NCBI RefSeq assembly: GCF_014841105.1
Contig: NZ_JACYWE010000009.1
Location: forward strand, 159,557 to 199,162
From: Lolliginicoccus lacisalsi
GTDB lineage: Bacteria > Actinomycetota > Actinomycetes > Mycobacteriales > Mycobacteriaceae
Direction: 5' to 3'
Length of the DNA: 39,606 bases
Shown here: in pieces, positions 2,492 through 39,606 of the stretch
How the letters are laid out: every line of letters begins with the position of its first letter
Position numbering within the stretch: the stretch's first letter is position 1
Made by a program: the position numbers and the translations under genes
The notes under the pieces: model-generated
The model's database searches: none
What the model saw: only the letters and a program-made list of their open reading frames with translations
What the model was told of the DNA's origin: nothing

Positions 2492-2564
2492 CAAACGCAC
2501 CTGGAATCGCTAAACGCGATAGAAAATCACCTGGGTTTCCCGCCGCTTCTATCGCGTTTGCATC
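2492..2564 (+). repeat. 73-bp palindromic intergenic element, copy 1
   Basis: The core is AAACGCGATAGAA (2512-2524), a 22-bp spacer, and its exact reverse complement TTCTATCGCGTTT (2547-2559). A further CAAACGCACC lies at 2492-2501 and GCATC follows the right arm. The same layout and length recur, inverted, at 15723-15795. It lies in the 310-bp stretch between the yceI start (2292) and the cyclase stop (2603), 43 bp past the cyclase gene, and could form a stem-loop at the 3' end of the long minus-strand operon. Apart from this element and the two yceI operators I see nothing else in that stretch. Confidence 0.8.
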
Positions 2565-2602: not shown

Positions 2603-3502
2603 CTAGCCGCCGAGCAGCACCGTGTACGAGATCGAATCAGCACCGTGATCGGCATCCTGCGCGCCCAGGCTGATCTGCCCGCTTCCGAGCAGCGGGCACT
2701 CGTCACGCCGCAGATGCACCCGGGCTCCCTCGTGGGTCACGACGAAGGTGCCGTTGGTGCTCTGGTCCTCGAGCACGAACGCGCCGCGCCGGTACTCGAT
2801 CCGCGCATGCTTGCGCGAGACCAGTGGAAGGTCCACCACTAGGTCGCTGTCCTGCCCGCGGCCGAGCAGGAAGGGCGTGTCACGCTCGGACACGCGGGCG
2901 CCCCGTCCATGGAACAGCAGTTGCAGCACCTTGCCGGGCTCGCCGGAGGCGGATCGGCCCAGGCTGACGATTCGGGTCGCATCGGTGTCGTCGTCCCACA
3001 GCACCTGGTAGATGTCGAGGGGCTCCTTCTTGCCCTTCACCGTGGCGCGATCCACGAGCCGCACGCGCACGGGCGTCCCTCTGGGCAGCAGGGCAACGCT
3101 GGCGCCGGACATGACTATCTGGTCGGCTCGCGCGAGCGCCACCATGCGCGCGGCGACATTGACGGCATCGCCGAACACATCACCGTCATCGCGGACGATC
3201 GCCTGGCCGAAGTGGAGGCCGACCCGGACGTGCAGCCGTGGCCCGGTGGGCAAGGGGGCGCGCATAGCTTCCTCGATGGCGATCGCGCCCTGCGCAGCGT
3301 CGGCGACGCTGCCGAACCGGGCCATGATCTCGTCGCCGATGGTCTTGATCACGATGCCCCCGTGTCGGCCCCCCGCGCGCGCCATGCGCTCGACGGCCTC
3401 GGCAATCACGGCGCTCGCTGCGACATCGCCGAGTGACTCGTACAGCTCGGTGCTGCCGCTCACGTCGGCGAACATCACGGCCAGCGCGTCAGGCTCGTCC
3501 AT
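2603..3502 (-). CDS. Class III adenylate cyclase fused to an FHA domain
   Basis: A 299-residue cytoplasmic protein. Residues about 5-165 are a class III nucleotidyl cyclase: the metal aspartates are D13 (MFADVSGST) and D57 (IKTIGDE), the adenine pair K53 and D112 is present, and the transition-state N115 and R119 lie in FGDAVNVAARM. All key residues are kept, so it should be active, probably as a homodimer making cAMP. Residues about 205-280 are an FHA phosphothreonine-binding domain (LLGRGQDSD, SRKHARI, STNGTFV), suggesting docking to or control by Ser/Thr kinases. The start ATG at 3502 follows GAGGTG. The gene is last in the minus-strand series from 6706. This domain order is known in actinobacteria but uncommon beside pirins. 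Confidence 0.92.
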   Translation of the reverse strand: MDEPDALAVMFADVSGSTELYESLGDVAASAVIAEAVERMARAGGRHGGIVIKTIGDEIMARFGSVADAAQGAIAIEEAMRAPLPTGPRLHVRVGLHFGQAIVRDDGDVFGDAVNVAARMVALARADQIVMSGASVALLPRGTPVRVRLVDRATVKGKKEPLDIYQVLWDDDTDATRIVSLGRSASGEPGKVLQLLFHGRGARVSERDTPFLLGRGQDSDLVVDLPLVSRKHARIEYRRGAFVLEDQSTNGTFVVTHEGARVHLRRDECPLLGSGQISLGAQDADHGADSISYTVLLGG

Positions 3503-13724: not shown

Positions 13725-15661
13725 CCCGGCCCGGACCCATGGGTGGCGCCGCTGACAGCCGGGGTAACCCCAACGCCAAAGCAATGAACTTCGGACCCTC
13801 CGCGCGCAGGCTGCTCGGCCTGCTCGCGCCGCAACGGCTCGCCCTCACCGTGATCATCGCGCTGATCGTGATGTCGGTCCTGCTCAACGCCGTGGGCCCG
13901 CGCATCCTTGGCCACGGCACCGACATCATCTTCAACGGGATCATCGGCAGGCAGTTGCCCGCCGGAACGACCCAGGCCCAAGCGGTGGAGCAACTGCGCC
14001 AGGCGGGGCAGGACACGTTCGCCGACATGGTCTCCGGCATGACCGTCACGCCGGGGCAAGGCATCGACTTCACTGCGCTCGGGCAAACCATGATCGTCGC
14101 GCTGCTCGTCTATCTCGTCGCCGCGATGTGCGCCTGGGGCGCGGCGTACCTGCTCAACACCGTGGTGCAGAACGTCATCCGCGGCCTGCGCGCCAGCATC
14201 GAGGGCAAGGTCCACCGCCTGCCGCTGGCCTACTTCGATCGCAATCAGCGCGGCGATACCCTCAGCCGCGTCACCAACGACATCGACAACCTCTCGCAGA
14301 GCCTGCAGCAGACGGTCAGCCAGATGCTCAACGCCCTGCTGACCGTTGTCGCGGTGCTCGGCATGATGCTGTGGATCTCGCCGCTGCTCGCCGGGATCGC
14401 GCTGCTCACCGTGCCGGCCTCGCTGCTCGTCGCCGCAGTGATCATGCGGCGCGCGCAACCGCACTTCGTGGGCCAATGGCGACACACTGGATCAGTCAAC
14501 GCGCACGTCGAGGAATCCCACACCGGCCATGAGCTGCTGCTCGCCTACGGGCAGGAGGACAGCGCGCAGGCACGCTTCGACGAGCACAACGGCGAGCTGC
14601 AGCAATCCGCCTTCAAGGCGCAGTTCCTGTCCGGGCTGATCATGCCGCTGATCATGTTCCTCGGCAACATCAACTACGTGCTCGTCGCAGTCGTCGGCGG
14701 GATGCGCGTGGCCACCGGCTCGATGAGCCTCGGCGAGGTGCAGGCCTTCATCCAGTACTCGCGCCAGTTCACCCAGCCGCTCTCGCAGCTCGCCTCGATG
14801 GTCAACGTGCTGCAATCCGGGGTCGCGTCCGCGGAACGAGTCTTCGAGCTGCTCGATGAGGAGGAGGAGCCCGCCGACGAGTCGTCCGGCCCTGCGCGAA
14901 CGGGCCCGGCCGGGGATGCACCGCGGGGCCGCGTCGAGTTCGATCACGTCTCCTTCCGCTACCACCCCGACCAGCCGCTGATCGAGGACTTGTCGCTGAC
15001 CGTCGAGCCCGGGCACATGGTTGCCATCGTTGGCCCGACCGGGGCGGGCAAGACAACCCTGGTGAACCTCATCATGCGTTTCTACGACGTCACCGCAGGC
15101 TCGATCCGCATCGACGGCGTGGATATCCGCCGCATGACCCGCGCCGGGCTGCGCTCGCGCATCGGCATGGTCCTGCAGGACACCTGGCTGCTCGGCGGCA
15201 GCATCGCCGAGAACATCCGCTACGGCTCGGATACCGCAACCGAGGATGAGGTGCTCGAGGCAGCCCAGGAGTCGTATGTGGACCGATTCGTCCGCGCGCT
15301 GCCCGACGGCTACGACACCAATCTCGGCGAGGACACTGGCACGGTCAGCGTCGGCGAGCAGCAGCTCATCACCATCGCTCGCGCCTTCGCCTCCAAGCCG
15401 CAGATCCTCATCCTCGACGAGGCGACCAGTTCCGTCGATACCCGCACCGAGCTGCTCATCCAGCAAGCCATGAGCCGCTTGCGCGCCGATAGCACCGCGT
15501 TCGTCATCGCGCATCGGCTCTCCACCATCCGGGACGCGGACGTCATCCTGGTGATGGAGCAGGGGCGGATCGTCGAGCAGGGCACCCACGAGGAGTTGCT
15601 CGACGCGCAAGGGGCGTACCACCGCTTGTACAGCAGCCAGTTCGCCGGGGCCCAGACCTAG
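13721..15661 (+). CDS. ABC exporter half-transporter with canonical ATP site
   Basis: A 646-residue partner of the preceding protein. The membrane domain (about 40-370) carries a long extracytoplasmic insert after the first helix (about 75-130). The ATPase has Walker A GPTGAGKTT (about 438-446), Walker B ILILDEATSSVD (about 563-574) with the catalytic Glu, and AHRLSTI with the switch His (about 597). Its signature is VSVGEQQ rather than LSGGQ. Combined with the partner, one composite site is fully canonical and the other degenerate on both faces, as in known heterodimeric exporters. The ATG at 13721 overlaps the partner stop (ATGA), and GGAGGGAGC precedes it, so the two are translationally coupled. 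Confidence 0.95.
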   Translation: MTRPGPMGGAADSRGNPNAKAMNFGPSARRLLGLLAPQRLALTVIIALIVMSVLLNAVGPRILGHGTDIIFNGIIGRQLPAGTTQAQAVEQLRQAGQDTFADMVSGMTVTPGQGIDFTALGQTMIVALLVYLVAAMCAWGAAYLLNTVVQNVIRGLRASIEGKVHRLPLAYFDRNQRGDTLSRVTNDIDNLSQSLQQTVSQMLNALLTVVAVLGMMLWISPLLAGIALLTVPASLLVAAVIMRRAQPHFVGQWRHTGSVNAHVEESHTGHELLLAYGQEDSAQARFDEHNGELQQSAFKAQFLSGLIMPLIMFLGNINYVLVAVVGGMRVATGSMSLGEVQAFIQYSRQFTQPLSQLASMVNVLQSGVASAERVFELLDEEEEPADESSGPARTGPAGDAPRGRVEFDHVSFRYHPDQPLIEDLSLTVEPGHMVAIVGPTGAGKTTLVNLIMRFYDVTAGSIRIDGVDIRRMTRAGLRSRIGMVLQDTWLLGGSIAENIRYGSDTATEDEVLEAAQESYVDRFVRALPDGYDTNLGEDTGTVSVGEQQLITIARAFASKPQILILDEATSSVDTRTELLIQQAMSRLRADSTAFVIAHRLSTIRDADVILVMEQGRIVEQGTHEELLDAQGAYHRLYSSQFAGAQT

Positions 15662-15669
15662 CGGGGCCA

Positions 15670-15720
15670 GTGCCGCCGCGGCGCCCGCTGGTGCCGCCGC
15701 GGCGCCCGCTGGTGCCGCCA
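15670..15720 (+). repeat. 21-bp tandem repeat after the exporter operon
   Basis: GTGCCGCCGCGGCGCCCGCTG occurs at 15670-15690 and 15691-15711, and a third copy begins (GTGCCGCC) at 15712. It is non-coding, lies directly after the exporter stop and ends at the second 73-bp element. Each unit holds CGCCGCGGCG, so it can fold on itself. Confidence 0.85.
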
Positions 15721-15722
15721 CC

Positions 15723-15795
15723 GACGCAAACGCGATAGAAGCCGCCGATGAACCAGCACAATTTCTATCGCGTTTGTCGATATCGGGTGCGTTTG
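15723..15795 (-). repeat. 73-bp palindromic intergenic element, copy 2
   Basis: AAACGCGATAGAA (15728-15740) and TTCTATCGCGTTT (15763-15775) are separated by 22 bp, as in copy 1. GGTGCGTTTG (15786-15795) is the reverse complement of the outer CAAACGCACC box of copy 1, so this copy is inverted relative to 2492-2564 and has exactly the same length. The spacers share about 13 of 22 positions, including CTGG. It lies between the convergent ends of the exporter operon (15661) and the epimerase-like gene (15829). Confidence 0.8.
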
Positions 15796-15828
15796 GCGCA
15801 GTGAGGTCGCGCCGCCCGGGCCCGGCCG

Positions 15829-17319
15829 CTAGCTCGAGCGCTCGGCGGTCCGGGTCATGTTCTTCACCATGCCGCTAAAGATCACGCCGTGGAACGGCAG
15901 GATCGAATACCAGTAGAGCCGACCCACCAGCCCCTTGGGGAAGAACACGGCGCGCTGATCGAGCTGCGAACCGCTGCCGGAGGGGTGGACGCGCATCTCC
16001 AGCCAGGCGCCCCCGGGCACCTTCATCTCGGCGCGCAGTCGCAACAACCGGGGCGGCTCGATCTCCTCGACCCGCCACCAGTCCAGCGCCTCGCCCTTGT
16101 AGAGATGGCGTGCGTCGCGGCGCCCCCGGCGCAGGCCAACGCCACCGGCCAAGCGGTCCATCCAGCCGCGGATCGACCAGGCGAGGGGGAAGGAGTACCA
16201 GCCGTTCTCGCCGCCGATGCCCTCGACGACCTCCCACAGCTTCTCGGGCGGTGCCGCGCATTCCTGGCGGCGGATGTCGGTGTAGACGGTCTCGCCCGAC
16301 CAGTCCGGGTCCGACGGCAGCTTGTCGGCGGGAGCGTCGGGGACCGAAGCGTTGGACCAGCGGGTCTCGACATCGCCGTCGTCGATGCGTTGCAGCGCGA
16401 GCTGCACGGCACGGCGGTAGGGGGTGAGGCCCTCGGCGGGCGGCGGCACGAATTCCTTGATGTCGCTCTCGTGGGCGATCGCTTCGCATTGCAGCGATTC
16501 GATCAGCGGCATCGCCAACGCCTTGGGCACCGGTGTCACCAGGTTGATCCAGTGCCCGGCGAGGCGCGGCGTGAGGACGGGCACGACGATCATGCGGCGG
16601 CGGGGGAGACCCGCGATCTCTCCGTAGGTCTGCATCATCTCCCCGTACTGCATCACGTCGGGACCACCGATGTCGAAGGTCCGGTTCTCGCCGGCAGCGG
16701 TGCGGAGGTCCGCGAGAGCGAGCAGGTAGTGCAAGGCATCGCGGACCGCGATCGGCTGGATGCGGTTCTTCACCCATTTCGGGGTGACCATGACCGGTAG
16801 GCGATCAGTGAGGTGGCGGATCATCTCGAAGGACGCGGACCCTGAGCCGATCACCACTCCGGCCTGCAGGACGATCGTGGGGACTGTGGACCCGAGCAGG
16901 ATGTCGCCGACCTCGGCCCGGGAGCGCAAGTGGGGGGAGAGGTCGTTACCGCTGGGGTGCAGGCCGCCGAGGTAGATGATGCGCTGCACACCAGCGGCCT
17001 CGGCGGCGTGGACGAGATTGAGCGCGGACTGGCGCTCGGTGTCGGCGAAGCGCTTGTCGCCACCCATCGAGTGGACGAGGTAGTAGATGACATCGATGCC
17101 CTGGCAGGCCTCTTCGAGGCTGTGGATGTCAGTGAGGTCGCCCTGGACGATCTCGGCGTCTCGTGCCCACGGCACGTCGCGCAGCTTCCCGGGTGTGCGG
17201 GCGAGGACGCGCACGGCGTTTCCCTGCTCGATTAGTCGGGGCGCGAGGCGTCCGCCGATGTAGCCAGTGGCGCCGGTGACGAGGCATCGCGTGGTCTGTG
17301 CCGAGGGGGTGTCCGCCAT
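15829..17319 (-). CDS. NAD(P)-binding epimerase-like protein with DUF2867 domain
   Basis: A 496-residue two-domain protein. Residues about 10-310 are an atypical SDR (NmrA/epimerase-like) with LVTGATGYIGGRLAPRLI binding NAD(P) and VIYYLVHSMGG. Residues about 340-490 match DUF2867: AAPPEKLWEVVEGIGGENGW, GWMDRLAGGVGLRRGRRD and ALDWWRVEEIEPPRLLRL. This pairing is common in actinobacteria and some proteobacteria; its reaction is not known to me. The canonical SDR catalytic YxxxK is not obvious. The ATG at 17319 lacks a good Shine-Dalgarno sequence. It converges on the ABC exporter, with copy 2 of the 73-bp element between them. Confidence 0.9.
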   Translation of the reverse strand: MADTPSAQTTRCLVTGATGYIGGRLAPRLIEQGNAVRVLARTPGKLRDVPWARDAEIVQGDLTDIHSLEEACQGIDVIYYLVHSMGGDKRFADTERQSALNLVHAAEAAGVQRIIYLGGLHPSGNDLSPHLRSRAEVGDILLGSTVPTIVLQAGVVIGSGSASFEMIRHLTDRLPVMVTPKWVKNRIQPIAVRDALHYLLALADLRTAAGENRTFDIGGPDVMQYGEMMQTYGEIAGLPRRRMIVVPVLTPRLAGHWINLVTPVPKALAMPLIESLQCEAIAHESDIKEFVPPPAEGLTPYRRAVQLALQRIDDGDVETRWSNASVPDAPADKLPSDPDWSGETVYTDIRRQECAAPPEKLWEVVEGIGGENGWYSFPLAWSIRGWMDRLAGGVGLRRGRRDARHLYKGEALDWWRVEEIEPPRLLRLRAEMKVPGGAWLEMRVHPSGSGSQLDQRAVFFPKGLVGRLYWYSILPFHGVIFSGMVKNMTRTAERSS

Positions 17320-30163: not shown

Positions 30164-33100
30164 ATGGAAGAGGCAGCACTGGGCGGCGGGCCTGGTGGCG
30201 CAGTGCCCCCGCAGGCATTTCCCCTGTCGCCGGCGCAGCATGGCATGTGGCTGGCCCAGCGGGTGAATCCCGACGTGCCGCTGAACATCGCCATGTACAT
30301 CGAGTTCGATGGGCCGATCGACCGGGCGCTGCTCAGCGCGGCGGCGGAGCAGGCTGGCCGGGAGCTGGGTTCCGGCTACCTGAGGATCATCGAGTCCGAC
30401 GGCACCCCGTACCAGCTCGTGGATCCCGGGATCGATGACCACATCGTCCCGATCGACTTCTCCCACGAGCCTGAGCCGCGATCAGCAGCGCATGCGTTCA
30501 TGCGGCAGGATAGCTCCACGCCGATCGACATGGTCAATGACCGCCTCGCCGTCTCCTACCTCCTGACCGTCGAGGAGGGCCGCCACTGGTGGTACACGCG
30601 GATGCATCACGTCACCATCGACGGCTTCGGCGCGAACACCCTGCTCAATCGGGCCGCCACGATCTACGGGGCACTGCTCGAGGGCGTGCCCGCCAAGCCC
30701 GTTCCCGCCAACTCGCTGCAGGAGCTGCAGGAGGATGAGGCCGCCTACGCCACCTCCACGCGGCGCAGCCGCGACGAGGAGTACTGGCGCGCCTACACCG
30801 AGGACCTGCCCGACCCCGCTTCCCTCGCCACGCGCTCCGCCCCCGCGTGCGCCGTCAGCCGGATCGCCTCGGCGCCCCTCGATGCTGATCTCGAGCAGGG
30901 CCTCGAGGAATCCGCGCGACGGTTCAACAGCTCCATCGCGCCCCTCTCCATCGCCGCGCTCGCGACCTACCTCGCGCAGTTCACGAGGCAGGACGAGATC
31001 GTGCTGAGCCTGCCTGTCACCGCGCGCACCACCCGGTCGGCCCGCGCCTCCGGGGGGATGATGTCCAACATCGTCCCGCTGCGGTTGTCCGTGCGCCCCG
31101 GGACCACGATCGGTGAGCTGCTGCAGTCGACGCAGACGCAACTGGTCGGGGCGCTGCGGCACCAGCAGTACCGTTTCGAGGATATCCAGCGCGGCAATGG
31201 TCCGGCGGCGGCGGATCGCAGCTTCTTCGGGCCGATGGTCAACATCATGATGTTCCGGCCCGATGTGCGGTTCGGTGACGTCGTGGGACGCATCAACGTG
31301 CTCTCCACCGGGCCGGTCGATGATCTCGCCGTCAACATGTACTCGTCCTCGGGCACGGCGCGCACGCACATCGATCTGGAGGCCAACCCCGAGCGGTACA
31401 GCGCGGCGGAGCTAGACCGCCACTATCACCGGTTCATGGAGCTGCTCCGCCGGTTCGCCGTCGCGGACCCCGGCACGCTGGCCACCGCCATCCCGCTGCT
31501 CGATGACAACGAGCGCGCCCTCGTGCTCACGGTCTGGAACCAGCGACGACTCGGCATCCCCGGCGATGCCACGCTGCCGGGCATGCTGGCCCGGTCCGCT
31601 CAGCGAACGCCCCGAGCCAGCGCGATCATCGACGACACGTCCCGCTGGACCTATGAGGCGTTCGACCAGAGGTCGTCCGGGCTCGCGCGCCTGCTCATCG
31701 AGGCTGGAGTGGGCCCGGAGCAGCGCGTGGCCGTGGCACAGCGGCGCTCCGCGGCCATGCTGGTGTCGTTCTGGGCGATCCTGAAGGCTGGTGGCGCCTA
31801 TGTTCCCGTGGATCCGGATCATCCGCGCGAACGCATCGACCACGTCATTGATTCGGCCGCGCCCACGTGCATCCTCATCGAGAAGGCGGACCTTCCTGCT
31901 ATCGCGCACCGGGGCGAGCCGATCATGGCCGTCGACGACGCGGGGGTCGAGGACCGCGTGCGGTCCCACGATACGAGCGCGCTGCGCCCCAGCGAGCTGC
32001 GCGGCCCGGTCCTGCCCGGATCGCTCGCCTACGTCCTCTTCACCTCCGGCTCGACGGGCAAGCCGAAGGGCGTGGCGGTCAGCCACTGCGCCATCGTCAA
32101 CCAGGCGGCCTGGCTGATCGACCACTACGGGTTCGGCAACGATGACGTCATCCTCCACAAGACGCCGTCGACGTTCGATGTGTCGCTGTGGGAGATGACC
32201 GTGCCGCTGCTCAGCGGCGGCACCGTCATCGTCGCCTCTCCCGACGCGCACCGGGATCCCGTGGAGCTCGCGGGGCTGATCGAGCGGCACGCGGTCACCG
32301 CGACCTCGTTCTTGCCGTCGATGCTGGCCGCGTTCGTCGCCAGCGCCGACTCCGGCCGTTGCCAGTCGCTGCGCCTCGTGCTCGCGGCCGGAGAGGCGCT
32401 GCCGGCGGACCTCGCCGCGCGCTTCCACCAGTTCAGCAATGCCCATCTGCACAACCTCTACGGCCCCACCGAGTTCGCCGTGCATGCCACGGCCGCGCGC
32501 ATCGACATGATGCCGCACCGGTCCGTGCCCATCGGCGCGCCCGTCGCCAACGCGCAGGCGTACGTGCTGGATAGATTCCTCGAACCGGTCCCCATCGGCG
32601 CGGCCGGGGAGCTGTACCTCGCCGGCGCGCAGATCGCGCGCGGCTACCACGGCCGCGGCGACCTCACCGCGGACCGCTTCATCGCCTCGCCGCATGGCCC
32701 TCCCGGCACGCGCATGTACCGCACCGGCGACCTGGTGCGGTGGCGCGACGACGGCATGCTCGACTACATCGGCCGCACCGACTACCAGGTCAAGATCCGC
32801 GGCCAGCGCATCGAGCTCGGCGAGATCGAGGCCGTGCTCGCCGCGCATCCCGACGTCACCAATGCCGTGGCGACGGTGCGAGCCACCGATCGCGGCCAGC
32901 GGCTGATCGCCCACGTAGTCCTTGCCAGTCCCGGCACGAGCGTCGCCGACCTGCAATCGTGGGTGGGCAGCGCGCTGCCGCTGTACATGGTCCCCGATGC
33001 GATCGTCCTGCTCGATGACATGCCGCTCACCGCGAGCGGGAAGGTCGATCGCAACGCTCTTCCCGCGCCCGCGCCAGGCACGACGAGCGCCGGCGAAGTG

Positions 33101-36100
33101 GCACCCCGGACACCGGCCGAGAAGGCCCTCGCGGACATCATGGCGCAAGTGCTCGGCATCGAGGCCATAAGCGTCGAGGACTCGTTCTTCGCCCTCGGCG
33201 GCGACAGCATCATCTCCATGCAGCTCGTCTCCCGGGCGCGCGACGCCGGATACCTGATCACTCCCCGGCAGGTCTTCGAGCGCCAGACCGTCGCTGAGCT
33301 CGCGAAGGTCGCCATCCGGGACGACCACGCCTCGCAGCCCCGCCTGGCCGAGCTGCCCGGCGGTCCCGTGGGCACCGCCCCGTTGCTGCCCAACGGCCAT
33401 TGGATGCTCGAGCGCGGCACCTACAGCAGCTACAGCCAGGCAGTTCTCGTCACCACGCCGGAGACCGCCACCCGCAGCGATATCGAGCATGTCCTCCAGG
33501 ATCTCGTCGACCGCCACGATGCACTGCGGCTGATCCTCGTCGATCCCGGGGGCGCAGCGCGGCTCATGATCCGCCAGCCGGGGGAGAGCAGGGTCGCCCC
33601 GCTGCTCCAGCACATCGTCGCGAGCGCGGTGCCCGGCAGCGACGAGTTCGATCGCCTCGTGGGCGAGCAGCTCGCCGCGGCGGCCCAGCGGCTCGACCCG
33701 CTCGCGGGCGTGATCCTCCAGCTCGTGTGGTTCACCCGGCCCGGAGAGCCAGGGCGGCTGTTGATCGTGGCCCATCACCTCGCGATCGACGGGGTCTCCT
33801 GGAGGATCCTGCTGCCGGACCTCGCGATGATCGGCGCCGAGCGCGCGCGGGCCAGCGCCGTCCAGCCAACCAGCGCGGAAGCCTCGCCCCGTGGCGGGAC
33901 GTCGTTGCGCCGCTGGGCGCACGGACTCGCCGAGCTTGCCCAGGAGCACCGCGCCGACGGTTCTCTGGAGCTCTGGCGGGAGCAGCTAGCCACGGCAGGG
34001 ATCCCGATCCTCGACGTGCCGTTCGATCCCCGCCGCGATACGGTCGCCACGTCCCGCACGATCCGCGCGTCGCTCCCCCCCGAGGTGACCGCCGCGCTGC
34101 TCGAGCGCCTCCCCGCCGCCTACCGTGCTGGCATCAACGACGCGATCATGACCGCGCTGGCGCTCAGCATCAACCAGCTCCGGGCAGAGCACGGAATCGC
34201 CCCCACTGACGTCGCCGTGCTCACCGAGGGGCATGGCCGCGAGGAGTCGATCCTGCCCGGCGCGGATCCCTCCCGCACGGTGGGCTGGTTCACCTCCTTG
34301 TACCCGGTGCGGCTCGGCCTCGGTGATATCGACGTCGAGGCCGCCCTTGCCGCGCGACCACCCATCGGGGATGCCCTCAAGCGCATCAAGGAGCGGATCG
34401 CCGCCATCCCTGGCAAGGGCATGGGCTACGGGCTGCTCCGCTATCCCGGAACCGCGGGCGCCGCGCCGGAGGGCACCACGACCGCGCCGCAGGCCAGCGT
34501 CAACTACCTGGGTCGCCTGACCACTTTCGAGATTCCCGATGAGCTGCGCCAGCAGGGCTGGATCCCGGCCGCGGAGGCATCGCAGCACAACAGCTTCGCC
34601 GACCCAGCCATGGCCATGGCCGCGGCCCTCGACCTCAACGCCTACATCGAGGAATCACCGGGTGGCCCGCGGCTCGTTGCCCGCTTCGACCACGCCACCC
34701 GCGTTCTGGGCAGCTCCGACGCTGCCCGCCTCGTCGAGCACTGGACCACCGCGATGCGCGCCATCGCGACGGACGCCTCCCGTCCCGGCAGCGGAGGCCT
34801 CACGCCCTCCGACGTGCCACTCGTCACGATCACCCAGGACGAGATCGAGCATCTCGAGCGCCGCTACCGCCGCATCGATGACATCGTGCCGCTCGCGCCG
34901 CTGCAGGCGGGCCTGCGCTTCCACGCCGAGCTCTCCGGACCGGCAAGCGATGTGTACACCACCCAGATCATCCTGGAGCTCGCCGGCACGATCGACGCCG
35001 ACCGCCTGCACGATGCCGCGCAGGAGCTGCTCGTCCGCCACGGCGCGCTGCGCGCGGCGTTCCCGGCCGGTACCGGAAGCGCCTCGGGAGCACCCCGGCA
35101 AGTGATCGTGCACGAGGCGCCCGCGCCATGGACGGTGATCGACGACCTCGCGGGTCCAGCAGCGCTCGCGGACCTCGAGCACGAGCAGCGGCGCGCGCCG
35201 TTCGACCTCGCCGACCCACCCCTGCTGCGCCTCGTGCTCGCCCGTTCCCGCGAGGGCGAGCAGTCGCTGATCGTCACCTGCCACCACATCCTTGTCGATG
35301 GGTGGTCGCTGCCGTTGCTCGTGCGCGACCTGCTCACCCTCTACGTCCTCGGTCCGTCGGGCGCGCCGGCACCGCAGGGGCGGTCCTACCGCGACTATCT
35401 CGAGTGGCTCCAGGCCAGGCCTGGCGCGGAATCCGTCGCGGCCTGGTCGCGCCTGCTCGAGGGCAGCGCCGAGCCGACGCTGCTCGCGCCGCTGGGCCAG
35501 GCCGTCGGTGTCGCCGAGGAGCCCGCCGATCTCGACGCCGACCTGCCCGAGGACCTCGTCGCGGCCATCGAGGAGACCTCCCGATCGCTCAACATCACCA
35601 CCAACACCATCGTCCAGGCGGCGTGGGGGCTGCTCATCGCTCGCCTCCTCGACCGCGACGACGTGGTCTTTGGCGCGACCGTCTCCGGCCGCCCCACCGA
35701 CCTGCCAGGCATCGACCACACCATCGGGCTGTTCATCAACACCGTTCCGGTCCGGGTCCGGATCGACCCGGCCGACACCATCACCGACCTGCTGCGCCGC
35801 GTCCATGACCAGCAGGCCCGCATGCTCGACCACCACCACACCGACCTCGCCGCCATCGTCGCGGCCGTGGGCGACGCAGCCGAGTTCGACACCCTGGCAG
35901 TGTTCGAGTCCTACCCGGTGGCCCGTGCCGGGCTCACCGCCGAGACAGACCTCGCAGGCATGAGGATCCGCGGCATCCGCGTCGCCGACGCGACGCACTA
36001 CCCCTTCGCGCTGGTCGCTCTCGTCGAGGACGGGATCACGCTGCGCGCCAAGTACCAGCGAGCCATCTTCACCGAGGAGGATGCGCGCGCCCTGCTCCAG

Positions 36101-39100
36101 GGCATGCGGGGCCTGCTCGCGGCCATCACCAGCGACACGTCCATGCTGGTGCGCGACACCGACGTGCTCGAGGAGGAGCAGCGGGCCGCGCTCGCGCCGG
36201 TGCACGGACGACCCGCATCGCCACCCATCCCGCTCGGCGAGATCCTCGCCGCCACCGCGCGGCAGCACGCCGCCGCGCCCGCGGTCACCGACCGTGGCCA
36301 GATCTATAGCTACGGGCAGCTCGACCAGGCATCCAGCCAGCTCGCGCGGCACCTCGTCGCCCGCCTCGGCGCCTCCGGTGCCCGAGCCGCCGCTGAGCTC
36401 GCCGAGCAGCCCGTCGCGATCGCCCTGCCGCGCTCCTGGGAGGCGCTCGTGGCGATGTGGGCGATCGCGCGCAGTGGCGCGCCGTTCCTGCCCCTCGACC
36501 CCCGCTATCCCCGTGCCCGCATCGAGCATGTCCTCGCCGACGCGGGCGCCGCCGTGGGCATCACGACGACCGCGCACCGAGGTAGCCTCCCCTCCACCAT
36601 CGACTGGATCGTCGTCGATGATCCCGCCACGCGTGAACGCATCGACCAGCAGTCCCGCGAGCCCCTCGCAGCCAGCGAGGCGCCGCGCGAGCCCGCGGCG
36701 GATTCCTGCGCCTACCTGATCTACACCTCCGGATCGACGGGAACCCCCAAGGGCGTGGCGGTCACCCACCGCGGGCTCGCGAACTTCCGCGACGAGCAGC
36801 AGCAGCGCTACCGCGTCACGCCCGCGAGCCGCGTCCTGCACGTCTCGTCGCCGGGATTCGACGCCGCCGTGCTGGAGTACCTCCTGGCCTTCGGCACGGG
36901 CGCCCGCTTGATCGTCGCCCCGACCGACACCTACGCGGGCGAGCAGCTCGAGGAACTGATCCGCGAGCACGATGTCACCCATGCCTTCATCACCCCGGGA
37001 GTGCTCGCGACCATGGCGCCGAGCGCCGTGCCGGGCCTCGCGCACCTGTGCGCGGGAGGCGAGGACGTGCCAGCCACGCTCGCGGCGCGCTGGGCCCCCG
37101 GACGGTGCCTGCACAATGGCTACGGCCCCACCGAGACGACCATCATGGTGGCGATCTCCGATCCGCTCGCGCCGGAGGGCCCCGTCACCATGGGTGGCCC
37201 TATCCGGGGCACCGACGCCGTCGTCCTCGATAGCCAGTTGCGGCCCGTCCCCATCGGGGTGCCCGGCGAGCTCTATGTCACCGGGCCCGGCCTGGCCCGC
37301 GGCTATCACGCCCGGCCCGGGCTGACCGCCGCAGCGTTCGTCGCCAACCCGTTCGGCGCACCGGGCACGCGGCTATATTCCACCGGCGACCGCGTGCGGT
37401 GGGTGCGCGGCTCCGGAGGCGACCTCGAGCTCTCCTACATAGGCCGCCGCGACCACCAGATCAAGATCCGCGGCCTGCGCGTCGAGCTCGGCGAGATCGA
37501 CGCCGCGCTCGAGCGGCACCCGTCCGTGGCGACCGCGATCACCGTGGCTGCTCGTGCCGGCAACGGTGCCCAGCGCCTCGTCTCCTACGTCACCCCGGCC
37601 GCTTCGGTGGACCTCGCTGTGCTGCGCGCGCACGCGGCCGCGATCCTGCCGTCCCACATGGTGCCCGCCCGCATCATCCCGCTCGAGGAGGTGCCGCTCA
37701 CCGTCAACGGCAAGATCGACCGTGACCGGCTGCCCGAGCCTGATCTCGACAGCACCCCGTCCCGGCCGCCACGCGAAGGCACCGAGCAAGCCATCGCGGA
37801 GGTCTTCGCCGATGTCATCGGCACCAGCACGCCCGGCGCGCAGGACTCGTTCCTCGAGCTCGGCGGGAACTCCCTCAACGCCACGATGGCCGTCTCCCGC
37901 ATCAACAGCGTGCTCGGCAGCAGCATCACCGTGCGGGACCTCTTCGACAATCCCACCGTCGAGTCCCTCGCGGCGCGCCTCGCAAGCGCGCCCACGGAGG
38001 CTGGCACGAGCGCCGGCCGCCCGCCGCTGGTGCCCCGGCCCCGACCCGGCCGCATCCCGCTCTCGCACGCGCAGGAACGCATGTGGTTCCTCAACCAGCT
38101 CGATGCCACCTCGCCGCTCTACAACATCGCGTTCGCCCTCGTCCTCGAGGGGCACCTCGATACCGATGCCCTCGAGCTCGCGCTCACCGACATCAGCGAC
38201 CGCCACGAGGCACTGCGCACCACCTACCCGAATACCGGTGATGGTCCGGTGCAGCTCATCCGCGCTGCCGGGACGCCACCGCGAATGATCATCGAGGACG
38301 TCGAGCCAGCCGCCACCGAGCAGCGCATGGCGGCGCACGCGTCCCAGGGCTTCGACGTGACCCGCGAGCTGCCCTGGCGGGCCGTGCTGCTGCGCGAGGC
38401 ACCGGATCGCCACCTCCTGGTGCTCGTCGCGCACCACATCGCCGCTGACGGCTCCTCCATGCGGCCGCTCGCCCGCGACATCATGGTTGCCTATCAGGCC
38501 CGGCGCACGGGCTCCGCCCCCGGCTGGGCGCCCCTTCCCGCGCAGTATGTCGACTACACCCTCTGGCAGCGGGAGATGCTCGGCGACCCGGGCGACCCGG
38601 GCAGCCTGGCTGGCCAGCAGCTCGACCAGTGGCGGACGATCCTCGACGACCTTCCCGAGGCGCTGGCCCTGCCCACTGACAAGCCGCGCCCGAGCGTGCT
38701 CTCCGGCGCGGGCGCCACGGTGCGGGGCACCATCGACGCGCCGCTGCACCACGCGATCGAGCAGCTCGCCAGGGCCCATCGGGCCACGCCGTTCATGGTG
38801 GTGCACGCCGCGCTGGGCGTGCTGCTCCAGCGCATCAGCGGCCAGGACGACATCACCATCGGATCGCCCGTGGCGGGACGCGGCGACGCCGCCCTCGACG
38901 ATCTCGTCGGATTGCTCGTCAATACCGCGGTGCTGCGCACCCCGGTGGTCGCGAGCCGGACCTTCGACGAGCACCTGGCCGACGTGCGGGCCCGCGATGC
39001 CGCGGCGTTCGAGCTGCTCGATGTGCCGTTCGAAATGATCGTGAACGCGATCGACCCCGCCCGGACAGCAGCTCATGCGCCGCTGTTCCAGGTGCTGCTG

Positions 39101-39606
39101 ACCTACCAGAACCTCGCGATCCCGGCGGTGCAGCTCGGCGGGCTCGAGGTCTCCGCCCGCGCGATCGAGACGGGGACCGCCAAGTTCGACCTGCAGTTCA
39201 CCCTCAGCGAGGGCCTGATGAGCGGCGCCGCGGGAGACGCCGGCTACGACATCGAGATCACCTACGCCACCGACCTTTTCACCGAGCGCACCGCCCGCGC
39301 GATGCTGCAGCGCTACATCCAGTTGCTCGAGCAGCTCGTCCGCCACCCGCGGGAACGCATCGGCGATGCGGAGATCCTCCTCGAAGTCGAGCAGCAAGCC
39401 CTCGCGGCACTCGCCCGCCCGCCCGCTCGCGATGCCGGGCGCAGCATCCTCGACGACATCAGCGATCGGGTCCGCGAGCAACCAGACGCCCTCGCGGTGC
39501 GCCACGAGGCAGGCACGCTCACCTACCGCGAGCTCGACGCGCGCTCCGACCTCCTCGCGGCTGAGCTCGCCCGCCACGGCATCGGCATCGACGACACCGT
39601 CGCGCT
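30164..39606 (+). CDS. Non-ribosomal peptide synthetase, C-A-T-E/C-A-T/C-A... (partial)
   Basis: The frame is open from ATG 30164 (AAGGAGCCGC upstream) to the window edge, about 3147 codons. Domains by nucleotide: C1 about 30215-31480 (MHHVTIDGFGAN; EntF-like); A1 31560-33070 (LFTSGSTGKPKG, YGPTE, SGKVDR); T1 33100-33310 (LGGDSI, carrier Ser codon 33206-33208); E 33340-34650 (HHLAIDGVSWR, SRTVGWFTSLYP, SVNYLGR); C2 34880-36180 (HHILVDGWS); A2 36235-37730 (IYTSGSTGTPKG, NGKIDR); T2 37770-37980 (LGGNSL); C3 38050-39340 (HHIAADGSS); A3 begins about 39445. All catalytic motifs are intact. Residue 1 would be epimerised to D, and C2 follows an E domain. Ten-residue pocket codes, aligned by hand to GrsA: A1 about DVWSLALVHK (Ser/Thr-like at best), A2 about DALFLAGIMK (unassigned). 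No loading domain is present. Confidence 0.96.
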   Translation, partial: MEEAALGGGPGGAVPPQAFPLSPAQHGMWLAQRVNPDVPLNIAMYIEFDGPIDRALLSAAAEQAGRELGSGYLRIIESDGTPYQLVDPGIDDHIVPIDFSHEPEPRSAAHAFMRQDSSTPIDMVNDRLAVSYLLTVEEGRHWWYTRMHHVTIDGFGANTLLNRAATIYGALLEGVPAKPVPANSLQELQEDEAAYATSTRRSRDEEYWRAYTEDLPDPASLATRSAPACAVSRIASAPLDADLEQGLEESARRFNSSIAPLSIAALATYLAQFTRQDEIVLSLPVTARTTRSARASGGMMSNIVPLRLSVRPGTTIGELLQSTQTQLVGALRHQQYRFEDIQRGNGPAAADRSFFGPMVNIMMFRPDVRFGDVVGRINVLSTGPVDDLAVNMYSSSGTARTHIDLEANPERYSAAELDRHYHRFMELLRRFAVADPGTLATAIPLLDDNERALVLTVWNQRRLGIPGDATLPGMLARSAQRTPRASAIIDDTSRWTYEAFDQRSSGLARLLIEAGVGPEQRVAVAQRRSAAMLVSFWAILKAGGAYVPVDPDHPRERIDHVIDSAAPTCILIEKADLPAIAHRGEPIMAVDDAGVEDRVRSHDTSALRPSELRGPVLPGSLAYVLFTSGSTGKPKGVAVSHCAIVNQAAWLIDHYGFGNDDVILHKTPSTFDVSLWEMTVPLLSGGTVIVASPDAHRDPVELAGLIERHAVTATSFLPSMLAAFVASADSGRCQSLRLVLAAGEALPADLAARFHQFSNAHLHNLYGPTEFAVHATAARIDMMPHRSVPIGAPVANAQAYVLDRFLEPVPIGAAGELYLAGAQIARGYHGRGDLTADRFIASPHGPPGTRMYRTGDLVRWRDDGMLDYIGRTDYQVKIRGQRIELGEIEAVLAAHPDVTNAVATVRATDRGQRLIAHVVLASPGTSVADLQSWVGSALPLYMVPDAIVLLDDMPLTASGKVDRNALPAPAPGTTSAGEVAPRTPAEKALADIMAQVLGIEAISVEDSFFALGGDSIISMQLVSRARDAGYLITPRQVFERQTVAELAKVAIRDDHASQPRLAELPGGPVGTAPLLPNGHWMLERGTYSSYSQAVLVTTPETATRSDIEHVLQDLVDRHDALRLILVDPGGAARLMIRQPGESRVAPLLQHIVASAVPGSDEFDRLVGEQLAAAAQRLDPLAGVILQLVWFTRPGEPGRLLIVAHHLAIDGVSWRILLPDLAMIGAERARASAVQPTSAEASPRGGTSLRRWAHGLAELAQEHRADGSLELWREQLATAGIPILDVPFDPRRDTVATSRTIRASLPPEVTAALLERLPAAYRAGINDAIMTALALSINQLRAEHGIAPTDVAVLTEGHGREESILPGADPSRTVGWFTSLYPVRLGLGDIDVEAALAARPPIGDALKRIKERIAAIPGKGMGYGLLRYPGTAGAAPEGTTTAPQASVNYLGRLTTFEIPDELRQQGWIPAAEASQHNSFADPAMAMAAALDLNAYIEESPGGPRLVARFDHATRVLGSSDAARLVEHWTTAMRAIATDASRPGSGGLTPSDVPLVTITQDEIEHLERRYRRIDDIVPLAPLQAGLRFHAELSGPASDVYTTQIILELAGTIDADRLHDAAQELLVRHGALRAAFPAGTGSASGAPRQVIVHEAPAPWTVIDDLAGPAALADLEHEQRRAPFDLADPPLLRLVLARSREGEQSLIVTCHHILVDGWSLPLLVRDLLTLYVLGPSGAPAPQGRSYRDYLEWLQARPGAESVAAWSRLLEGSAEPTLLAPLGQAVGVAEEPADLDADLPEDLVAAIEETSRSLNITTNTIVQAAWGLLIARLLDRDDVVFGATVSGRPTDLPGIDHTIGLFINTVPVRVRIDPADTITDLLRRVHDQQARMLDHHHTDLAAIVAAVGDAAEFDTLAVFESYPVARAGLTAETDLAGMRIRGIRVADATHYPFALVALVEDGITLRAKYQRAIFTEEDARALLQGMRGLLAAITSDTSMLVRDTDVLEEEQRAALAPVHGRPASPPIPLGEILAATARQHAAAPAVTDRGQIYSYGQLDQASSQLARHLVARLGASGARAAAELAEQPVAIALPRSWEALVAMWAIARSGAPFLPLDPRYPRARIEHVLADAGAAVGITTTAHRGSLPSTIDWIVVDDPATRERIDQQSREPLAASEAPREPAADSCAYLIYTSGSTGTPKGVAVTHRGLANFRDEQQQRYRVTPASRVLHVSSPGFDAAVLEYLLAFGTGARLIVAPTDTYAGEQLEELIREHDVTHAFITPGVLATMAPSAVPGLAHLCAGGEDVPATLAARWAPGRCLHNGYGPTETTIMVAISDPLAPEGPVTMGGPIRGTDAVVLDSQLRPVPIGVPGELYVTGPGLARGYHARPGLTAAAFVANPFGAPGTRLYSTGDRVRWVRGSGGDLELSYIGRRDHQIKIRGLRVELGEIDAALERHPSVATAITVAARAGNGAQRLVSYVTPAASVDLAVLRAHAAAILPSHMVPARIIPLEEVPLTVNGKIDRDRLPEPDLDSTPSRPPREGTEQAIAEVFADVIGTSTPGAQDSFLELGGNSLNATMAVSRINSVLGSSITVRDLFDNPTVESLAARLASAPTEAGTSAGRPPLVPRPRPGRIPLSHAQERMWFLNQLDATSPLYNIAFALVLEGHLDTDALELALTDISDRHEALRTTYPNTGDGPVQLIRAAGTPPRMIIEDVEPAATEQRMAAHASQGFDVTRELPWRAVLLREAPDRHLLVLVAHHIAADGSSMRPLARDIMVAYQARRTGSAPGWAPLPAQYVDYTLWQREMLGDPGDPGSLAGQQLDQWRTILDDLPEALALPTDKPRPSVLSGAGATVRGTIDAPLHHAIEQLARAHRATPFMVVHAALGVLLQRISGQDDITIGSPVAGRGDAALDDLVGLLVNTAVLRTPVVASRTFDEHLADVRARDAAAFELLDVPFEMIVNAIDPARTAAHAPLFQVLLTYQNLAIPAVQLGGLEVSARAIETGTAKFDLQFTLSEGLMSGAAGDAGYDIEITYATDLFTERTARAMLQRYIQLLEQLVRHPRERIGDAEILLEVEQQALAALARPPARDAGRSILDDISDRVREQPDALAVRHEAGTLTYRELDARSDLLAAELARHGIGIDDTVA

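Follow-up and report, generated by a model that had tools for sequence, protein, structure and literature searches.

A dispersed four-unit palindrome in Lolliginicoccus and its possible pairing with an AbiEi-like protein

The closest described counterpart of the repeat considered here is the REPIN/RAYT system, in which, according to the accessible text of the source, extragenic hairpin-forming repeats have conserved inverted ends, fixed spacing and a less conserved spacer, lie beside their own enzyme gene and use words that vary between genomes (PMC3116915). GTAG-tagged repeats have a candidate enzyme (RAYT), whereas CGTC-tagged REPs—which lie downstream of genes and have loops of 4–5 bp—are said, in the available portion of a second source, to be without a dedicated transposase (PMC3733652); that text nowhere uses the word actinobacteria. 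A further comparison is offered by AbiEi-type proteins such as Streptococcus agalactiae AbiEi and Rv2827c, which, in the accessible part of their description, use arrays of inverted repeats as binding sites, with autoregulation acting through 23-bp inverted repeats (PMC7319586).

The element studied here occurs twice in the window, the whole stretch of 39,606 nucleotides of Lolliginicoccus lacisalsi DNA that was analysed. Copy 1 (2490–2564, + strand) comprises box A, arm B, a 22-bp loop, arm B′ and a GC end: unit A, which can be read as an imperfect direct repeat of the arm unit 19 bp away, lies at 2492–2507 (+; placed from the sequence, with the A–B alignment reasoned from the consensus), arm B (AAACGCGATAGAA) at 2512–2524 (+) and the inverted arm B′ at 2547–2559 (−). 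Copy 2 (15723–15797, − strand) has arm B′ at 15728–15740 (+), arm B at 15763–15775 (−) and unit A, again placed from the sequence, at 15780–15795 (−). The edges of both copies, about 75 bp apart, were set by a consensus of 96 dyads. Copy 1 sits in a codirectional gap, with the stop of the gene at 2603–3502 (−) 44 bp away, and copy 2 lies between the convergent genes 13784–15661 (+) and 15829–17319 (−). A preliminary description had reported two copies with shared arms, a 22-bp loop and an outer box, and this layout holds, the box (CAAACGCACC) starting 20 bp before one arm; the similarity also exceeds that of shuffled sequence, since the arm word with at most two mismatches matches the window four times, always within the two copies, against a shuffle mean of 0.13. 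Membership of a known RNA family was considered and rejected, with no Rfam match above the gathering score within the window.

As to the neighbouring genes, the frame at 2603–3502 (−) encodes a fusion of an adenylate/guanylate cyclase domain with an FHA domain and is flanked by two YceI-like genes; matches in the congener G002 at the syntenic place skip this cyclase–FHA gene. At the other end of the window, a single open frame of more than 9 kb (30245–39604, +), overlapped by large − strand ORFs, runs off the window end and, to judge by its size, may be a type I fatty acid synthase or similar.

Conservation among the 96 dyads begins 22 bp ahead of the first arm and ends 5 bp past the second, with the consensus GGCAAAAGCACCGGAAACCGYC–arm–22-bp loop–arm′–GCGGC. 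Box A (CAAAAGCACCGGAAAC), 19 bp upstream of the arm unit (CAAACGCGATAGAAGC), looks like a degenerate version of it; the outer box is usually CAAAAGCACC, with both window copies carrying the minority form CAAACGC. At four loci of the same genome a second perfect arm unit stands in place of box A, and at three an inverted box A stands in place of the inverted arm, so the units are interchangeable in place. The whole is a four-unit palindrome, made of two direct units 19 bp apart followed by inverted units; the inner inverted unit is weak in Lolliginicoccus.

In the genome that contains the window (G000; 24 contigs, 3.45 Mb), 88 exact AAACGCGATAGAA–N–TTCTATCGCGTTT dyads are found when loops of 10–30 bp are allowed, and none of a reversed-pattern control; matches to the arm with at most one mismatch number 213, again with none for the control. 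The loop measured 22 bp at all 50 places among the matches listed, and 86 exact dyads with this loop were recovered in the stretches fetched from the genome. Among 41 genomes searched, exact dyads were present in three—this one, G003 (72 dyads) and G001 (65 dyads)—and absent from the congener G002 and 37 others; named carriers among the matches listed are Lolliginicoccus levis and L. suaedae. All told, the Lolliginicoccus genome has roughly 90–100 copies of the element, far beyond the two on which the preliminary description was built. For mapping, we assembled 93 dyads (at most two mismatches per arm, 22-bp loop) from stretches around 100 matches to box A plus arm B and from the window; both arms are perfect in 86 of them, and one copy (L104) shows an identical change in its two arms.

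Outside the window, a gene for a 309-aa AbiEi-like protein (L139:3210–4139, equivalent to G000:C10:86732–87658) has an element on both sides in G000, G001 and G003. Three genes were seen singly bracketed by elements where, by our own estimate, chance would give about three, so the bracketing alone is no proof, which has to come from the homologs described below. Pfam and NCBIfam returned no match for the protein, while PADLOC AbiEi models matched it and three homologs (best E-values 6e-15 to 2e-24); among 24 homologs, at E ≤0.1, 12 matched AbiEi_4, ten AbiEi_1 and two DUF559, the one DUF559 match shown individually falling below its cut-off. Residues E190, D223 and E233-F-D-G are invariant across the homologs and K239 is nearly so, a pattern that we take to be a PD-(D/E)xK or Vsr-like core; we likewise assume a resemblance to Vsr/DUF559 endonucleases in the invariant acidic residues and the lysine, alongside the weak DUF559 matches. 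The C-terminal part is, on these residues, probably nuclease-like. A search for solved structures found no relative (best E 0.48), and prediction from the single sequence gave no usable fold (pLDDT 32).

Homologs occur in 34 of the 41 genomes at E 1e-6 (the protein's own genome included) and, at 1e-30, in 36 of the 150 genomes searched within the order; the closest relative within the same genome is only 45% identical. That second family member (G000:C10:187924–188823, L370) was not called by the gene caller and is possibly decayed; its flank is partly masked, and its palindrome hit, at a score of 48, is borderline and one that we distrust. A Y1 transposase gene (PF01797) was found once in G003 and in none of G000, G001 and G002, on which ground a RAYT partner in the window's genome was rejected; the earlier remark that no transposase lies near the window copies is true. 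Viral relatives of the protein were also sought, and none of the 87 stretches that matched the pattern was confirmed.

We interpret the palindrome and the protein as a pair resembling REPINs and RAYT, with an AbiEi-nuclease protein taking the role of the RAYT transposase and the palindrome as the protein's cognate DNA site, and assign this reading a probability of about 0.6. Because AbiEi-type proteins bind arrays of inverted repeats, the 309-aa protein is a plausible reader of the four units: its AbiEi-like part would bind the palindrome units, and the protein would make nicks or cuts close to the edges of the element. Rare rounds of cutting and repair could copy the palindrome to new places, as is thought for RAYT with REPINs, and copies at gene ends would survive as those that do least harm.

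The mapped dyads do lie mostly at gene ends, as the preliminary description had noticed for its two copies: 56 of the 93 occupy convergent gaps, 32 codirectional gaps, three divergent gaps and two contig edges, with none inside genes, the counts resting on a simple codon-usage gene caller and on loci chosen for having elements. A contiguous 400 kb of the same genome has 16 dyads, which lie, among gaps of 120 bp or longer, in 7 of 24 convergent and 9 of 79 codirectional gaps and in none of 37 divergent ones. Orientation in codirectional gaps is opposite in 21 cases and the same in 11, and no replication-direction pattern was established on the one 400-kb stretch.

Comparison with sister species placed a dyad at the same position in 66 of 69 comparisons (54 sites of the window's genome), in the same orientation in all 66, with left flanks about 88% identical on average. 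Changes at these orthologous sites number 3/1716 in the arms, 454/1452 in the loop, 136/1056 in box A and 80/264 in the linker, the arm figure being biased by the choice of sister loci for exact arms and by the double entry of some sites. The reverse approach, in which 79 sister dyads were compared with the 400 kb of contiguous sequence and no site was preselected on the window genome's side, found all ten sister dyads with both flanks placed together (eight sites) to be perfect in that sequence; L047, whose flanks lie 20 kb apart, was excluded. Among the three comparisons without a dyad, one is a sister-species copy with a 23-bp loop (L070) and two are true absences, in which more than the element is missing and no target duplication is evident. 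Neither an exact empty site nor a clean target duplication was found at these loci, in keeping with the earlier statement that no duplication was clear, and no mobilisation event was seen. The element is maintained and vertically inherited, not freshly spread.

This retention argues against present activity of the element, and a purely selfish element does not explain why the arms are constrained in place; their constancy may reflect continued binding with use by the cell, or the protein's action on altered sites. A rival explanation is a host-used binding site, for the nucleoid or as a gene-end insulator, in which the cell uses the bound protein in gene-end gaps and mobility is past. It would accommodate the constrained arms, the predominance of convergent gaps with complete avoidance of genes, and the uneven occupancy of gap types along the 400 kb. 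It is harder to reconcile with the absence of the word from the congener G002, the absence of two sites in a sister species and the failure of a replication-type orientation pattern to emerge on the 400-kb stretch, and we regard it as improbable, if far from negligible.

If instead the palindromes have been copied by a cognate protein, the cut-and-repair events would also leave tandem duplications abutting the elements. Such duplications (unit of at least 12 bp) occur beside 58 of 91 elements and in 15 of 205 element-free gaps at the same loci; the contrast is weaker in convergent gaps alone (38 of 56 with elements against 3 of 10 without, the latter 90–400 bp long), and codirectional gaps give 18 of 33 against 8 of 83. 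Of the downstream arrays 21 of 45, and of the upstream arrays 21 of 55, begin right at the edge of the element; a control that counts from the distal end of the 200-bp flank gives 0 and 1 (unit of at least 10 bp, masked bases excluded). Examples of duplications in element flanks include L093, L094, L118 and, in the window, 15670–15719, a duplication with a 21-bp unit whose end is some 8 bp short of an arm of copy 2. A separate observation concerns three contigs of the same genome (C2:1–40, C24:1–40 and C19:1–42; L100, L169 and L203) that begin with about 40 bp of foreign sequence within an element or at its edge, as though the palindromes were targets of insertion sequences; insertion sequences that target REPs are described in the accessible part of PMC1525189.

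At the place of window copy 2, the congener G002 has a different palindrome, ACGCTCCCACTTTG–ACGCTCCCACTTTT...AAAAGTGGGAGCGTC, with a direct–direct–inverted–inverted plan and a period of 19. Five elements of this kind, all intergenic, occur in 400 kb of G002, and exact dyads of their word were absent from the other 150 family genomes searched. Eleven type-1 sites of the window's genome have both flanks placed in the G002 stretch, one with a G002-type element and ten without; among all 30 placed rows, from this genome and its sisters, three rows point to two G002 elements. Sharing of type-1 sites beyond expectation was considered and rejected, the two of five G002 elements at or near a type-1 position being judged probable chance. 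One G002 element is directly adjoined by a short tandem array, AGAGCGTCACCGA (L239 1540–1640).

Across several genera and families, homologs of the AbiEi-like gene have palindromes beside them that follow the same plan of two direct and two inverted units, but mostly with different words. In a first scan of 39 loci, three of them from the type-1 clade, 23 of 78 sides scored at least 48 with a period of 19 and 19 with a period of 20, against 0–4 at each of the nine remaining periods between 15 and 25; two loci (L347 and L368) lie on short contigs and the two sides of L347 are one element counted twice. Among 52 control sides beside ABC-transporter genes, one scored at period 19, none at period 20 and 0–2 at other periods. 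Adding 20 further loci and leaving out the type-1 loci L331–L333, which score below threshold because their inner units are weak, gave 56 homolog loci, of which 44 have a palindrome of period 19 or 20 on at least one side and 23 on both, compared with one and none of 26 ABC-transporter control loci. These figures should be read with the knowledge that scan windows and scoring were set after the first cases, that the first 12 loci are those where the pattern was noticed, and that a single gene family of the relatives panel supplied the controls, whereas many of the homolog loci belong to other genomes of the order. Twelve of the 56 loci, including all three of family f2, have no palindrome at threshold, and three distant paralogs (28–35% identity) have no flanking palindrome; positive loci fall in families f1, f3, f4 and f16.

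The palindromes on either side of a gene use a common word. Period agrees in 22 of the 23 two-sided loci, their unit words agree at a mean of 15.4 of 20 positions, where mismatched pairs agree at 11.1 (permutation p 5e-5), and 18 of the 23 lie above the 95th percentile of mismatched pairs. Different genes within one genome mostly have different words (G012, G189, G008), while close paralogs have similar ones (L344 with L382, L371 with L372). Across 38 loci, genes with more similar proteins tend to have more similar words (Mantel r 0.23, p 4e-4): the six closest protein pairs match at 15 of 20 positions, against about 10.8 for distant pairs, and the nearest protein has the same period in 30 of 38 cases (52% expected), to which shared ancestry contributes.

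Copies away from family genes are found outside the Lolliginicoccus type as well. The word GCTCTTGCG of related f16 genes forms six dyads in G177, two in G194 and one each in G281 and G238, with none for the control; one dyad in each of these genomes is at the gene, and four other genomes have no dyad. The six solo copies comprise three in convergent gaps, one in a codirectional gap and two together at a contig start. Solo copies also occur in G002, and G008 has a 700-bp tandem cluster of two words, one of them the word of a family gene 50 kb away. This cluster (G008:C7:76356–77100; L301 16356–17100) alternates two four-unit palindromes with a period of about 172 bp and follows just after sequence that resembles, by eye, a tRNA 3′ end. 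When dyads were searched de novo in G023, G012 and G019 (95–100 kb of each), no word recurred at three or more places; G023 and G012 have palindrome-flanked family genes elsewhere.

These flanking and solo copies bear on the idea that the palindrome is no more than an operator of the flanking gene, with dispersed copies as accidental spread. The autoregulation of AbiEi proteins through inverted repeats gives that idea a precedent, but palindromes on both gene sides in 23 of 56 loci, also behind the stop, and dozens of solo copies beside unrelated genes make it very improbable.

Bidirectional intrinsic terminators, a role that the preliminary description had listed as a strong terminator, would suit the placement at gene ends and hairpins that, folded as DNA, are more stable than shuffles in both window copies (z −2.5 and −3.3). 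Of 11 loop pairs two covary (13–34, p 0.001; 15–32, p 0.006), and the other nine do not at 0.05. The consensus has no T-run after the stem, which is followed by GCGGC on one side and by box A sequence on the other strand, and the arm sequence is near-invariant though any stem would serve a terminator; a terminator role is thus highly unlikely. An ordinary MITE of an unseen DDE transposon would explain a short dispersed inverted-repeat element and the G002 positions that lack it and have shorter gaps, but is scarcely credible given one non-transposase family associated across genera, the constraint on the arms, and vertically inherited copies, with neither a clean target duplication nor an exact empty site seen. 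Of the candidates named in the preliminary description, a REP/BIME-like sequence or a protein-binding site is supported in kind, the element being dispersed and intergenic with inverted arms and a variable loop.

The pairing of palindrome and AbiEi-nuclease protein may extend well beyond Lolliginicoccus. Tentatively, and at somewhat less than even odds, we propose that Mycobacteriales harbour a large unrecognised element class in which an AbiEi-nuclease fusion gene is bracketed by two four-unit palindromes whose word its protein reads; protein and word would co-diversify, often with one word per gene within one genome, and palindromes would multiply in some lineages—to about 90–100 copies in Lolliginicoccus—through transposase-free cut-and-repair. 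In the loci studied, palindromes and an unrelated protein family appear to go together across several families of a single bacterial order, and this points to a type of bacterial repeat-plus-enzyme system that has gone unnoticed. Who spreads or maintains such repeats becomes testable with one protein and one 75-bp DNA, and the class would offer many natural protein–word pairs for learning DNA recognition. Searches of the open-access literature turned up nothing that pairs this protein type with palindromes; subscription journals and preprints lay outside the scope of that search, and the novelty is accordingly provisional.

Set against the known systems, the Lolliginicoccus element is like REPIN/RAYT in its inverted conserved ends, its variable spacer of fixed length (one 23-bp loop apart) and its position on either side of a candidate cognate enzyme gene, but that enzyme is of a different protein family. 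Unlike REPIN/RAYT, it has four units with a period of 19 or 20, a partner that is AbiEi-like with a nuclease-like part, no Y1 transposase in three of the four genomes and no GTAG tag at the hairpin foot in the consensus of 96 dyads; we do not file it under REPIN/RAYT because the defining enzyme and tag are absent. The G002 elements end in CGTC, as CGTC-tagged REPs do, but are four-unit, whereas the consensus of the window type has a 22-bp loop in place of one of 4–5 bp and lacks the CGTC tag. Vsr/DUF559 endonucleases differ from the 309-aa protein in that its nuclease-like part is fused to an AbiEi-like part and paired with palindromes. The protein shares an AbiEi-like domain with AbiEi antitoxins and differs from them in its extra C-terminal nuclease-like part, and, whereas an AbiEi operator would be expected only in the promoter of its operon, its candidate sites lie on both sides of the gene and are dispersed across the genome.
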